Shown: in pieces, positions 1-15,511 of the stretch
How positions within the stretch are numbered: position 1 is the first letter of the stretch
Layout of the letters: every line of letters begins with the position of its first letter
Assembly: GCA_913042205.1 (NCBI GenBank)
Contig: CAJWIY010000015.1
Coordinates: 1 to 38,414, forward strand
Reading direction: 5' to 3'
Length of the DNA: 38,414 nucleotides
From: an uncultured Gammaproteobacteria bacterium
Lineage (GTDB): Bacteria; Pseudomonadota; Gammaproteobacteria; Pseudomonadales; Litorivicinaceae
Translations under genes and position numbers: made by a program
The notes under the pieces: generated by a model
Database searches by the model: none
What the model was told of the DNA's origin: nothing
What the model saw: only the letters and a program-made list of their open reading frames with translations

Positions 1-140
1 TTTTCATTACGAGTCTGACATTGGCTGTGATTGCAAAGCAGAAGGCAGACGCAGCAGGAGCTTTTGGTCTCCCTGATTTACCGGCTCAGGATGTCGAATC
101 GGTGATACAGGAGCCGGTCGCCCCCAAAACTGTCGACTGA
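1..140 (+). CDS. secG: SecG C-terminal end (partial, 5' cut by window)
   Basis: The reading frame open from base 3 encodes 45 residues and ends with TGA at 138-140. It begins with a hydrophobic stretch (FITSLTLAVIA) followed by a polar, Pro/Ala-rich tail (LPAQ, QEPVAPK). This matches the second membrane helix and cytoplasmic tail of SecG, the small SecYEG translocon subunit that assists protein export across the inner membrane. Sequence alone is weak evidence for so short a piece. The call rests mainly on context: secG followed by tRNA-Leu(GAG) and then rimP-nusA is a standard gammaproteobacterial order. The start lies outside the window. Confidence 0.75.
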   Translation, partial: FITSLTLAVIAKQKADAAGAFGLPDLPAQDVESVIQEPVAPKTVD

Positions 141-11051: not shown

Positions 11052-11536
11052 TGTTTTTCTTCCTGTGTATCGATTCGGACCAGTGTGGAGGCATCGTAGC
11101 GGTTTCGATCGATTCGGTCACCTGTTGGTGTGATCTCACTCTTTAATAAATCAAGTAATGGGATAGTGACGAATGAACGCTTTAGAACCTCTGGATGTGG
11201 AATCTTGAGTGATGAACTGGTGAAGTTTAAGTTTCCGAAGTACAGAATATCTATATCGATTGTTCGAGGGCCCCAAAGGACTGTTTCTACCCGTTTTTGA
11301 CACTTTTCAATCCGTTTTACAAATCCTAAAAGATCTTCTGGTGAAAGGTTCGTTTGTCCTTTAATGACGGTATTAACAAAATCTGGTTGGTCTTGTGGTC
11401 CCAATGGCTTAGACCGATACAGGGTTGCTCGCTCGATAGAATCAACGAAAGCGCCAAGTGACTCGATGGCGCAGTGAATTTGGCGAATTGGTTGATCGAG
11501 GTTAGATCCAAGTCCAAGAAATATGGTTTCACTCAC
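11042..11536 (-). CDS. folK: HPPK (hydroxymethyldihydropterin pyrophosphokinase)
   Basis: FolK transfers pyrophosphate from ATP to 6-hydroxymethyl-7,8-dihydropterin in folate synthesis. Motifs seen are IFLGLGSNL at the N-terminus, LYRSKPLGPQDQPDFVNTV, and the metal/ATP signature WGPRTIDIDILYFG followed by IPHPEVLKRSFVTIPLLDL. A longer ATG frame reaches 11659, but its first 41 residues lie inside pcnB and are not family-like. GTG at 11536 gives 164 residues (E. coli 159) and overlaps the pcnB stop by 8 nt. It sits in pcnB-folK-panB-panC as in Pseudomonas. Confidence 0.94.
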   Translation of the reverse strand: MSETIFLGLGSNLDQPIRQIHCAIESLGAFVDSIERATLYRSKPLGPQDQPDFVNTVIKGQTNLSPEDLLGFVKRIEKCQKRVETVLWGPRTIDIDILYFGNLNFTSSSLKIPHPEVLKRSFVTIPLLDLLKSEITPTGDRIDRNRYDASTLVRIDTQEEKQWL

Positions 11537-12857
11537 GGTATCTGTATTTTTTAAGAAGGTGTCGTTTTGGTACTTCCTCAAAATCTTCTTCGATGGATGC
11601 AACCAGTTCTCGCCTTTGCGATTCATCTGAAACTTGATAATTAGTCCACCATTCACCAAGACCGACCATTATTTCGCCGGCACTTTCTCGCAGTAGTAAA
11701 AAGTCGTAGCCAGCGCGAAACCTGGGGTGCTCAAGTGTTGAGTCAGGTCGTCGACCATGACGCTTTTCCAACTTGATTTGTAGACCCCAAATTTCTCGAA
11801 TAGTTGCGCAGAAGCGTTTAGGGATAGCGACGTATTGTTGATTCAAGTCTAAGGTTTCGGACGAGGCAATGGTGAGAGATTGTGTTCGACCATGACCTTC
11901 GGCTGCTAGTTCTTGCCATCGGTGATGAACCTGAGGCCAGTGCAGTGCTGCATATAAAAACGCAGGGGTGACGGACTTGCCCTCCGCCAAACGAGCATCA
12001 GTGTTGCGTAGCGCAAGATCAATCAATGATAGATAAATACCATTATCGCTAGATTCGAGTAAATCAAAAGTATGTGGAAATAGGGGCTTAAGTAGGCCAT
12101 GTTGCATAAGATGAGAAAATGTAACTCGTCCATATCCTGCTTGAAGTAGTTTTAGGATTTCATCAAAAAGTCTCGAAGCAGACACATCGCGGAGTAATGA
12201 AGTTAGTTGTCGGATGGGTTCTGACGTGTCATTTTCAAGGGAGAGACCAAGTTTGCCAGTAAAGCGAATTGCACGTAGCATCCGGACCGGGTCTTCTCGA
12301 TAGCGTGTTTCTGGATCACCAATAATACGAACGATCCCATCCTCCAGATCATCATATCCACCTACAAAATCCAAGACTTGATGGTTAGATGGATCGTAAT
12401 ACAGTGCGTTCATGGTGAAATCTCTGCGTACTGCGTCATCCTCCACAGACCCAAATACGTTATCACGAACAAGCATTCCCGATGCGTTGGTTCGTCGCAT
12501 TTCGCTATTGTTAGCTGATCCACGGAACGTTGTGACCTCAATCACCTCGGCACCGATTCTGACGTGGACAATTTGAAACCTACGACCTATGAGTCGTGAT
12601 CTTTTGAACAGTTTTTGTACCTCGATGGGCTTCGCACTGGTTGCGACGTCAAAATCTTTAGGATGTTTTCTGAGCAATAGATCACGGATTCCGCCGCCGA
12701 CTAGGTACGCCTCATATCCTGCGTGTTGTAGTACTCCAATTACTTTCAGGCTACCGGGAGATAAGTCCCTATGATTTATTCCGTGGTATTCCTGAGAAAT
12801 CACTTCTTTACAAACGTCGACGGGCTGGGGACCTTTCTTTTTAAACACCGAAAACAA
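11529..12857 (-). CDS. pcnB: Poly(A) polymerase I
   Basis: PcnB adds poly(A) tails to RNA 3' ends, which marks them for decay. The 442-residue product has the nucleotidyltransferase motif YLVGGGIRDLLLRKHPKDFDVAT (about 54-76, with the DFD metal site), RRDFTMNALYYD, EDPVRMLRAIRF, and a basic C-terminal region. The start is TTG at 12857, supported by GGAG 7 nt upstream, and family homology begins within the first 30 residues. It is the first gene of pcnB-folK-panB-panC and has its own candidate promoter at 12887. Confidence 0.96.
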   Translation of the reverse strand: MFSVFKKKGPQPVDVCKEVISQEYHGINHRDLSPGSLKVIGVLQHAGYEAYLVGGGIRDLLLRKHPKDFDVATSAKPIEVQKLFKRSRLIGRRFQIVHVRIGAEVIEVTTFRGSANNSEMRRTNASGMLVRDNVFGSVEDDAVRRDFTMNALYYDPSNHQVLDFVGGYDDLEDGIVRIIGDPETRYREDPVRMLRAIRFTGKLGLSLENDTSEPIRQLTSLLRDVSASRLFDEILKLLQAGYGRVTFSHLMQHGLLKPLFPHTFDLLESSDNGIYLSLIDLALRNTDARLAEGKSVTPAFLYAALHWPQVHHRWQELAAEGHGRTQSLTIASSETLDLNQQYVAIPKRFCATIREIWGLQIKLEKRHGRRPDSTLEHPRFRAGYDFLLLRESAGEIMVGLGEWWTNYQVSDESQRRELVASIEEDFEEVPKRHLLKKYRYRE

Positions 12858-12907: not shown

Positions 12908-12931
12908 AAAAAAGGGGCTTTCGCCCCCTTT
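12908..12931 (-). terminator. Intrinsic terminator upstream of pcnB
   Basis: Read on the minus strand, GGGGC (12927-12923), a GAAA tetraloop and GCCCC (12918-12914) are followed by six T (12913-12908) and ATTG. This strong Rho-independent terminator ends transcription coming from the cbrB-like gene or from an RNA gene in the 13283-12932 gap. It separates that transcript from the pcnB operon. Confidence 0.85.
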
Positions 12932-13237
12932 CATAATCGTACAGTTGTTATTGTTAACATTGTTTGCACGCTAAAATTACCTTCCAATATGCAATCTAAG
13001 TTTCAAATTATAGTCCCTATAACTAAGGCCTCAGCTTTCGCTTTATTATTTTTATCGGCCTAAGAGAACAACTTTGCCCCCTTGAAACTCAGTTCTCACA
13101 GTGAACCGTAATCTCACACAGCTATATTTTTATTTTTCTGCCGTAACCGTTCTTTTTATTGGTCTTATCTCGAACGCAGGCAAAGTAAAACATTTCTTGA
13201 GGAGATGAAATATTAGACCTAGGGATTAGAGAATTTT
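12908..13237 (-). ncRNA. Candidate CrcZ-like small RNA in the cbrB-pcnB gap
   Basis: There is no protein gene between the cbrB-like stop (13283) and pcnB (12857). In Pseudomonas this interval encodes CrcZ, an RNA that titrates Hfq/Crc through A-rich motifs. On the minus strand I see four segments matching AANAANAA: at 13164-13147, 13140-13122, 13056-13039 and 12955-12942. The third sits inside a stem formed by CTTAGGCC (13064-13057) and GGCCTTAG (13030-13023), with one mismatch. A strong terminator ends the region at 12908. A weak promoter, GTGACA (13273-13268), 18 bp, CATAAA (13249-13244), would start RNA near 13237, giving about 330 nt. I find no sigma-54 promoter. It could instead be only an AT-rich 3' untranslated region. 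Confidence 0.33.
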
Positions 13238-13282
13238 GAACGCTTTATGTTACTAATAGTTACTATGTGTCACTGAAAAGTG

Positions 13283-14608
13283 TTACGACTCGGACAAAGC
13301 TTCCTTGCGCTTAGGGATGCCCAGTCGATTGCGGCGTTCCCAAAGGCTTTTCCGACTTATACCAAGCTGTTTCGCAAGCTCGGTCTCACTCATTTGCTCT
13401 TGGTGTGACAAAACGAAGTATTGAAAATAATCTTCTAAGGACATTGTGGGTCTACTCTGTTTTATGTGATGCTGTTCACCTGCACTGAATTTTGGCAAAT
13501 CAGGACCTGTCATTTGGATATTGAGATCAATGGCCTCAATGATTGGACCTTCACAAAGAACAACGGCGCGTTGGACCACGTTACTGAGCTCTCGCACATT
13601 GCCCGGCCATCTATATTTTGATATTGCAGCTTTCGCAGCATCACTGAGTCGGATTTCGGGGCGTACCATCTCATTTTTGGCTTGTTTGAGAAATGCCTCC
13701 GCGAGAATTAGGATATCGTCTACGCGATCTCTTAGCGGTGGACATGTCAACTCGATGATATTGAGACGGTAGTACAAATCTGCTCGAAACTCACCTTTTG
13801 ATACCCTTTCCAGTAGATCGTGTTGTGTTGCCGCAATTAACCGAACATCCACATAGATTTGGTCGGTACCCCCGACTCGTCGAATCTTACCTTCCTTGAG
13901 AAACTGCAGAAGTCTCGTTTGTGCTCCTGTCGGGAGTTCACCGATCTCGTCTAGGAAAAGACTCGATTGGTCTGCGGATTCTATGAGGCCAGCATGATCA
14001 CTCGCTACGCTTGTTAATTCTTCGTTAACGTAACCAAATAGTTCGCGTTCTATTAAGGATTGGGGAATCGTTGCGCAGTTGATCGAAATCATTTCCAGCC
14101 CTGATCTTTTGGATTGGTCATGAATTGACTTGGCGACTAGTTCTTTGCCGGTCCCCAGTTCGCCACTAATTAAAATAGTTTTATCGAGTGGTGCTACCCG
14201 AGAGACTTGTCGCTTTAACTTCAGTATGGGCTCGCAATGGCCGATCATTGGGTCAACTTTTGCTGAGTAGGTTTTAGTGGCCCTGTCGATCGCTTTGCTA
14301 AGGTCCGTTTGATCAACCGGTTTAGTGAAACAGTCAAATGCACCTTTCCGCATTGCTAAGATACCAGCCTGCAGGGAGCTTTGGCCCACCAATAGAATTA
14401 GAGGTGTTGGTTTAAAGTTTGTGATCAGATCGATACCCGATCCATCGGATAGTCTATGTTCACAGATTACGCAGTCGATTTTTGAGGTAATTGATTTGGC
14501 ACCGTGGATAGATTCACTTACCAGGACTAAATGATTCTGTTGCTCAAGACTCATCTGGAGCGATTTACAGGTAATAACATCATCTGTAACGATAAGTAGC
14601 GTTGCCAT
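13283..14608 (-). CDS. CbrB-like NtrC-family regulator, degenerate receiver and no GAFTGA
   Basis: The 441-residue product has a receiver domain (1-115), an AAA+ domain (about 122-350) and a Fis-type helix-turn-helix (about 405-435, TELAKQLGISRKSLWERR). ATPase motifs are intact: Walker A GELGTGKE (149-156), Walker B LFLDEIG (217-223), arginine-finger segment FRADLYYRLN and sensor 2 WPGNVREL. Two signature sites are not. The phospho-accepting Asp is replaced by Glu50 (VICEHRLSDGSG), although Lys96 is kept. GAFTGA, which touches sigma-54, aligns with EELTSV (196-201). Position (dksA-gluQ-this-pcnB) and C-terminal sequence indicate a CbrB orthologue, whose Pseudomonas form controls carbon/nitrogen use with CbrA. 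CbrA is absent here. It may act on sigma-70 promoters, independently of phosphorylation. Confidence 0.9.
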   Translation of the reverse strand: MATLLIVTDDVITCKSLQMSLEQQNHLVLVSESIHGAKSITSKIDCVICEHRLSDGSGIDLITNFKPTPLILLVGQSSLQAGILAMRKGAFDCFTKPVDQTDLSKAIDRATKTYSAKVDPMIGHCEPILKLKRQVSRVAPLDKTILISGELGTGKELVAKSIHDQSKRSGLEMISINCATIPQSLIERELFGYVNEELTSVASDHAGLIESADQSSLFLDEIGELPTGAQTRLLQFLKEGKIRRVGGTDQIYVDVRLIAATQHDLLERVSKGEFRADLYYRLNIIELTCPPLRDRVDDILILAEAFLKQAKNEMVRPEIRLSDAAKAAISKYRWPGNVRELSNVVQRAVVLCEGPIIEAIDLNIQMTGPDLPKFSAGEQHHIKQSRPTMSLEDYFQYFVLSHQEQMSETELAKQLGISRKSLWERRNRLGIPKRKEALSES

Positions 14609-14641: not shown

Positions 14642-15511
14642 CTAGACTGAAAGGGTATTAGTTACTCCGGCCATGGATTTGATAGCTGCTGGTGTTGTCA
14701 CTGATTGAAAAAAAGCCAGCCAGATAGACGCGGGATCCCTGTCTGACGGTGTGTCTTTTAGTAACATTAATTTCGCGAGTTTTGAGTAGGTTATGCCAGG
14801 AAATTTCCGGTTTACAGGGCTTGCAAATGTTTGTTTTGACAGTTTGCTGCCATTACTGTCGATGAGAACGGGAAAATGTCCATAGTTGGGACTTGCAAAT
14901 CCTAAACGTTCTGAGATGAAGCACTGCATGGGTGTAGATTCTAAAAGATCGACACCTCGAATTACGTCAGTGATTGAGTCTATATGCTCATCAACTGCAC
15001 AGGCTAATTGATAGGCAAATAACCCATCCCTTCTTTTTACAATGAAATCCCCGGGGCTACCTGTGATCTGAGGACCCAGTAGTAAGTCATTTACAGAAGT
15101 ACTTAATTTTTCTGTAGAAATTCGAATAGCACTGTCTGCTAGAAAAGGCTGTCCCAATCGGTTAGCACAGTTACCTGCATAAGGTCCTTTCGGTAGTGAC
15201 TTTCGCGAACACGTACAGCTATAGAGAATACCTTGGCGTTTTAATGTGCTAAGGGCGTCTGCATAGTCTTTTAGCCGGGTAGACTGATAAATAACGGCCC
15301 TGTCTGACTCCAGTCCAAACGCGTTGAGGCAATTAAGAATTTCATCTGAGTGCGACTGATTGCAACGTTTCTCATCTAGATCATCGATGCGAACTAACCA
15401 CTGCCCGTTTTGTTGCTTCGCATGAAGAAAGCTCAAAAGCGCAGCGAAAATTGAACCAAGGTGCAGTGAGCCGGTTGCTGATGGTGCAAATCGGCCGCGG
15501 TACACATTCAA
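14642..15511 (-). CDS. gluQ: Glutamyl-Q tRNA(Asp) synthetase
   Basis: GluQ-RS is a paralogue of the catalytic half of glutamyl-tRNA synthetase; it attaches glutamate to queuosine-34 of tRNA-Asp. The 289-residue length (no anticodon-binding domain) fits. It has GRFAPSATGSLHLGSI (HIGH-class motif), a zinc site CTCSRKSLPKGPYAGNC, a DEHIDSITDVIRGVDLL region, and SKLSKQ in place of KMSKS. It lies 3 bp after dksA, the usual gammaproteobacterial pair, and 33 bp before the cbrB-like gene. Confidence 0.96.
   Translation of the reverse strand: MNVYRGRFAPSATGSLHLGSIFAALLSFLHAKQQNGQWLVRIDDLDEKRCNQSHSDEILNCLNAFGLESDRAVIYQSTRLKDYADALSTLKRQGILYSCTCSRKSLPKGPYAGNCANRLGQPFLADSAIRISTEKLSTSVNDLLLGPQITGSPGDFIVKRRDGLFAYQLACAVDEHIDSITDVIRGVDLLESTPMQCFISERLGFASPNYGHFPVLIDSNGSKLSKQTFASPVNRKFPGITYSKLAKLMLLKDTPSDRDPASIWLAFFQSVTTPAAIKSMAGVTNTLSV

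Follow-up and report, generated by a model that had tools for sequence, protein, structure and literature searches.

A CbrB ortholog lacking kinase, phospho-acceptor and sigma-54 contact loop beside a CrcZ-like small RNA in the Litorivicinaceae

The cbrB locus and its gene product

The DNA analysed here (the window) is a stretch of 38,414 nucleotides from an uncultured Gammaproteobacteria bacterium (GCA_913042205.1, contig CAJWIY010000015.1, positions 1-38,414, forward strand) with the GTDB lineage Pseudomonadota; Gammaproteobacteria; Pseudomonadales; Litorivicinaceae. Its genome is referred to as G000 and a sister genome as G011. The genes and codons of interest are the following.

11529-12857, minus strand: pcnB, downstream neighbour, which served as synteny anchor and selection control
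13283-14608, minus strand: cbrB ortholog, 441 aa, ATG start, no frameshift
14006-14023, minus strand: cbrB codons 196-201, by alignment EELTSV replacing GAFTGA in loop L1 (KKLTAA in G011)
14459-14461, minus strand: Glu50 codon, corresponding to the phospho-acceptor residue of the receiver (Asp in outgroups)
14642-15511, minus strand: gluQ, upstream neighbour directly abutting cbrB

An earlier reading made from the letters alone (the sequence-only reading) had delimited cbrB exactly at 13283-14608; it is encoded on the minus strand, as the plus strand across this interval shows many stops in the reading-frame check. Gene order is dksA-gluQ-cbrB-pcnB-folK-panB-panC with cbrA missing between gluQ and cbrB, in agreement with the earlier comparison of the locus to a Pseudomonas cbrA-cbrB-pcnB arrangement devoid of cbrA, and the best cbrB matches in relatives occupy the equivalent position between gluQ and pcnB. 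Surveying the family, a recognisable cbrB was found in 18 genomes besides the window's own, while G005 held just a C-terminal piece of the gene, located via pcnB.

The deduced protein shows the CbrB architecture of receiver, sigma-54-type AAA+ and Fis-type HTH domains, with a pseudo-receiver at residues 1-104 (Pfam Response_reg, 5.6e-10), the AAA+ domain at 119-366 (Sigma54_activat, 7.5e-57) and the DNA-binding domain at 385-434. Alignment with relatives confirmed the earlier by-eye assignments, i.e., Asp in outgroups at the position of Glu50, GAFTGA in relatives at residues 196-201, and retention of Walker A (GELGTGKE), Walker B (LFLDEIGE), the arginine fingers (FRADLYYRL), sensor 2 (WPGNVREL) and the Fis-type HTH. 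In addition, receiver position 74 is Val where outgroups carry a conserved Thr. Thus, neither the acceptor Asp nor the conserved Thr/Ser of a phosphorylated response regulator was found in the window protein (Glu50, Val74), and the GAFTGA loop of a sigma-54-dependent activator (bEBP) was not found either. Of 75 AAA+ positions that are otherwise invariant, the window protein departs at 12 and that of G011 at 10, which exceeds chance and compares with 0-2 in other genus members except G014 (8/75). In the window protein 8 of the 12, and in that of G011 7 of the 10, lie within L1 or at the base of L2 (Fisher 0.0007 and 0.0012, for segments picked after inspection).

Order of losses across the genus

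Due to the missing cbrA, gluQ abuts cbrB with a gap of 33 nt in the window and of 33-40 nt at all 14 full-length genus loci. A cbrA gene next to cbrB was not found in the window or the genus, and querying the genus with the CbrA-type kinase of the sister genus resulted in generic kinase matches only, corroborating the absence of cbrA proposed in the sequence-only reading. Glu50 and the Val at the receiver Thr position are universal among full-length genus members. In the sister genus (G024), Asp, Thr and GAFTGA are all present and a CbrA-type kinase adjoins cbrB. The latter (L025:2-1108) has about 360 aa comprising PAS, HisKA and HATPase domains without the long N-terminus, possibly an intermediate preceding cbrA loss.

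GAFTGA is intact across most of the genus. It has been lost in the window (EELTSV), G011 (KKLTAA) and the G016 pseudogene (DEVTSA) and, as a separate event, in G014 (GAFTNA), i.e., only in the window's clade plus one other genome. Hence, of the two substitutions to be sought in relatives, Glu50 turned out to be genus-wide and loss of GAFTGA restricted to some genomes. As Glu50, Val74 and the absence of cbrA are all genus-wide, kinase and phospho-site were lost first, which refutes the joint loss of kinase, phospho-site and sigma-54 loop assumed previously: cbrA and Asp50 were already gone in the genus ancestor, and GAFTGA as well as the sigma-54 promoter described below outlasted them in most of the genus. 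Consequently, Glu50 marks an earlier stage that was phosphorylation-free and still sigma-54-dependent. It may mimic phosphorylation, although such mimicry is not needed, since CbrB from Pseudomonas is reported as barely phosphorylation-dependent (PMC6296734) and as 40% active without phosphorylation (PMC8871633).

Three amino acid changes (F198L, R205H, R263H) and a promoter deletion are common to the window and G011, indicating that these two lineages split after the loss of GAFTGA. The cbrB gene of G014 (L023:1486-2862) shows other changes, namely GAFTNA, a Walker B motif turned into FLDKIDEL with loss of its Glu, and YYQLN, and this genome groups elsewhere in the tree; the same event as in the window is therefore ruled out and its decay is independent. 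Also in G014, the -24 element upstream of the sRNA is degraded and the sRNA retained.

Searching for rpoN, as the sequence-only reading had suggested, revealed an intact gene of 475 aa in the window's genome; rpoN loss is thus ruled out. Six sigma-54-type activators are encoded in this genome, the other five of which keep GAFTGA or GSFTGA. A second CbrB elsewhere can be dismissed, as none of these five is a CbrB ortholog.

The CrcZ-like RNA and its upstream region

In Pseudomonas, the gap between cbrB and pcnB is occupied by crcZ (PMC8871633). The corresponding gap in the window amounts to 425 nt and contains the following features.

12908-13177, minus strand: CrcZ-like structured sRNA of about 270 nt, from folding, covariation and covariance-model search
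12908-12932, minus strand: predicted intrinsic terminator of the sRNA
13183-13196, minus strand: promoter-region block 2, GAAATGTTTTACTT, conserved throughout the four clade genomes and including TGTTTTACT, a weak match to an extended -10; candidate replacement promoter
13207-13229, minus strand: promoter-region block 1, CTAATCCCTAGGTCTAATATTTC, likewise conserved throughout these four genomes
13249-13273, minus strand: CbrB subsites by consensus match, degenerate F1 (GTGAC) and intact R1 and R2 (GTAACTATTAGTAAC), centred at -84/-74

The sRNA folds with a z-score of -6.0. When aligned across 19 genomes, 97.6% of cells pair, compared with 32-53% in slid structures, and 24 of 60 pairs show double-sided changes, a value reached by 0 of 500 shuffles. 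The Rfam model for CrcZ (RF01675) matches at the right place and strand at 14.5 bits, against a gathering score of 95, and matches in relatives (22.0 and 21.4 bits) likewise stay below threshold. A covariance model finds one strong copy in each genus genome with the locus assembled and weak syntenic matches in the sister genus. Besides the CrcZ-type location and the CbrB/sigma-54 control elements seen in relatives, the RNA carries four AAnAAnAA motifs in the window (3-5 per genome), and both Hfq and a Crc ortholog, the latter next to pyrE and rph, are encoded in the genome. Based on location, structure, A-rich motifs and the presence of Hfq/Crc, the RNA is best called CrcZ-like and would act as an Hfq/Crc decoy. 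It also contains a long near-invariant pairing between AGATTACGGTTCACTGTGAGAAC and GATTGCAnAnTGAAAGGTAATTT, without a counterpart in the sister genus, the conserved sequence of which may have a role beyond pairing. This putative target of CbrB had been missed by the earlier reading, as had the corresponding disappearance of its sigma-54 promoter.

At 13 genus loci, a -24/-12 element (e.g., TTGGCACAGCATATGCA) is present about 13 nt ahead of the first hairpin of the RNA. Upstream of this element, three subsites, F1-R1-R2, match the published CbrB consensus TGTTAC/GTAACA (PMC6296734), with the centres of R1 and R2 at a distance of 125-141 nt to the start in promoter-bearing loci. Within the genus, this triple pattern occurs essentially only upstream of the sRNA, other matches being at control level. 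At the window target, a -24/-12 promoter was not found. A deletion of about 53 nt in the window's clade has removed the element and shifted R1 and R2 from about -137/-127 in the ancestral state to -84/-74 relative to the inferred start. In the window and G011, F1 is degraded, and R1 and R2 are intact. An assembly artefact is ruled out, as the deletion is common to four genomes and G011 and G016 recur as public contigs L045 and L047.

The promoter is lost in all four GAFTGA-less genomes (window, G011, G016, G014) and in G007, where cbrB is deleted, and the sRNA is kept in each case. Loop and promoter are both present at 12 loci, loop without promoter at one (G019) and promoter without loop at none; these counts take no account of kinship, and on the tree they correspond to two loop losses, both in promoter-less lineages. 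G019, which like G014 lost the element separately, is a third lineage in which the sigma-54 promoter disappeared, by deletion (L020:2829-3206) and with GAFTGA intact, a state suggesting that promoter loss preceded loop loss. A TATGAT hexamer is found near -10 in G019.

Could the window CbrB still activate sigma-54 promoters with a divergent L1? Apart from the presence of rpoN, little would speak for this very improbable scenario, as the whole motif has been replaced differently in EELTSV, KKLTAA and DEVTSA, the target promoter is deleted, and changes of the central Phe/Thr of GAFTGA mostly abolished activity in a published survey (PMC3162934).

In the three promoter-loss lineages, the subsites are centred at -84/-74, -82/-72 and -90/-80. 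Any deletion removing the promoter shortens this distance, and the repeated spacing of -72 to -90 may therefore not be selected. The positions at -84/-74 may be compatible with regulation of a sigma-70-type promoter as by TyrR or NtrC of Rhodobacter capsulatus. As a tentative scenario, less probable than its alternatives taken together, three lineages of the genus would have lost the sigma-54 promoter independently, by deletion or decay, which would have put the CbrB site at -72 to -90 and turned the distant enhancer into a class I-type site at a sigma-70-type promoter, whereupon the phosphorylation-free activator would have lost its loop. Scanning the cbrB-pcnB gap for sigma-70 promoters found none, and the -10-like hexamer match in the clade was no better than in shuffles. 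Relative to the ancestral start, the element TGTTTTACT spans -15 to -7 and lacks the A at -11; conserved but weak, it is the best candidate for a replacement promoter.

The R1-R2 sequence GTAACTATTAGTAACATAA (GTAAC-N5-GTAAC) is identical in the window and G011 (0/19 changes), whereas its flanks differ at 10/19 and 5/15 positions; at the flank rate of 15/34, the probability that a 19-mer stays unchanged is about 2 in 100,000 (hand calculation). Compared with the window, 3/19 positions are changed in G016 and 5/19 in G007, both closer relatives without a working cbrB. Conservation of R1-R2 is the main sign that the window CbrB probably still binds there.

Selection on cbrB and the fate of the circuit

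In the pcnB tree, the window groups with G016 and G007, and G011 stands outside. The cbrB of G016 is a pseudogene with several stops and frameshifts, and in G007 an N-terminal stub is fused to the final codons at a short repeat, AATCGACT. Hence, part of the clade can do without the gene. The decay that was to be looked for is thus found in these sisters and not in the window copy.

Between window and G011, the AAA+ domain shows 64 nonsynonymous and 62 synonymous codon differences and the DNA-binding domain 3 and 14, respectively. On the branches following the loss of GAFTGA, omega is 0.26 for AAA+, 0.23 for the receiver and 0.06 for the DNA-binding domain, each far below 1 (p<1e-6). For AAA+, this is a significant rise over the background of 0.056. 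However, omega of pcnB increases fivefold in the window and G011 lineages as well (0.205 versus 0.039 background), so that the dN/dS rise anticipated for AAA+ was found but is, taken alone, not specific. Accordingly, dN/dS was set aside as proof of relaxed selection on AAA+; the pcnB rise hints at a lineage-wide relaxation. The signal that is specific to AAA+ is the loss of invariant positions (23/116 and 20/116 in window and G011 versus 0-3/179 in pcnB), most of all in the two loop segments named above.

With two sisters having lost the gene, the copies in the window and G011 might be incipient pseudogenes not yet inactivated after the sRNA had escaped to a sigma-54-independent promoter. The pseudogene of G016 and the internal deletion in G007 would fit, as would G014, which has lost both the Walker B Glu (FLDKIDEL) and GAFTGA, and the window protein's loss of 12 of 75 invariant AAA+ positions. 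Yet both reading frames are open although the lineages split after the GAFTGA loss, neutral drift to comparable divergence giving several stops; moreover, omega is far below 1 in all domains and R1-R2 is unchanged between the two genomes. Decay under way is thus considered rather unlikely, and purifying selection together with the unchanged site points to re-use rather than plain decay. Alternatively, CbrB might be kept for another role (other promoters or protein interactions), the link to the sRNA being a relic. Selection on receiver and AAA+ beyond DNA binding would be in line with this, but the confinement of the triple-subsite pattern to the sRNA and the conservation of R1-R2 in step with the gene make it improbable.

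Overall, it appears somewhat more probable than the other readings combined that the window CbrB is a regulator working independently of phosphorylation and sigma-54, which still occupies its site ahead of the sRNA and is dispensable in some sisters. From the re-purposing proposed in the sequence-only reading, the assignment as CbrB ortholog and a function independent of its kinase and, very probably, of sigma-54 are retained, while the simultaneous loss is not. Losing cbrA, the receiver Asp and Thr in the genus ancestor would have rendered CbrB constitutive, driving the sRNA from the -24/-12 promoter. In the window's clade, the deletion of about 53 nt would then have removed this promoter and brought the subsites to -84/-74, with the sRNA being transcribed from a sigma-54-independent promoter. 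Subsequently, the sigma-54-contact loops of CbrB would have lost constraint, DNA binding staying selected in G000 and G011, where CbrB would modulate the new promoter from its upstream site by class I-like activation or by repression, both being compatible with the sequence data. In G016 and G007, this role would have been dropped and the gene pseudogenised or deleted, the sRNA persisting.

With the CbrAB-CrcZ-Hfq-Crc system of Pseudomonas, the window shares the domain architecture of CbrB, the TGTTAC/GTAACA subsites, an sRNA between cbrB and pcnB, the matching gluQ-cbrA-cbrB-crcZ-pcnB order, Hfq, Crc and the A-rich motifs. It differs by the lack of cbrA, GAFTGA and the -24/-12 promoter, by Glu50, by subsites that have moved about 50 nt towards the start, and by a highly structured sRNA below the Rfam threshold. 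TyrR and DhaR have no receiver domain. Together with HupR and VpsR, they are GAFTGA-less relatives of sigma-54 activators that regulate sigma-70 promoters (PMC3162934), but these are old families, unlike the within-genus change described here. NtrC from Rhodobacter capsulatus and Caulobacter, also without GAFTGA and L1, acts at sigma-70 promoters (PMC10274813). In these NtrC proteins, L1 is deleted and phosphorylation still matters, whereas in the window CbrB the loop is substituted and the receiver dead, and relatives still display the former sigma-54 target promoter as well as its intermediates.

A 2022 review describes CbrAB, as carbon control circuit with CrcZ-Crc/Hfq, as unique to Pseudomonadaceae (PMC8871633). 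Arrangements of the type cbrA-cbrB-(sRNA promoter)-pcnB are also seen in Paraperlucidibaca as well as in further families of this order (L046:2062-6338, L025:2-2457). The present findings imply that the CbrB-CrcZ-Crc/Hfq circuit extends beyond Pseudomonadaceae and can run without its sensor. The strongest novel element, read from genome comparison, is the apparent co-loss of activator loop and promoter with sRNA and upstream site retained. How activators and promoters jointly leave sigma-54 control has mostly been deduced from old families, e.g., TyrR, while here a single genus presents the stages from the intact state via promoter lost with loop intact and both lost with the site kept to pseudogene and deletion, the target sRNA being kept at every stage. 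If the conversion of the enhancer to a class I-type site holds true, this series would document, step by step and in nature, how an enhancer-binding protein changes over to conventional activation. The sequence states and their distribution reveal a control circuit being rewired or dismantled stepwise within a genus.
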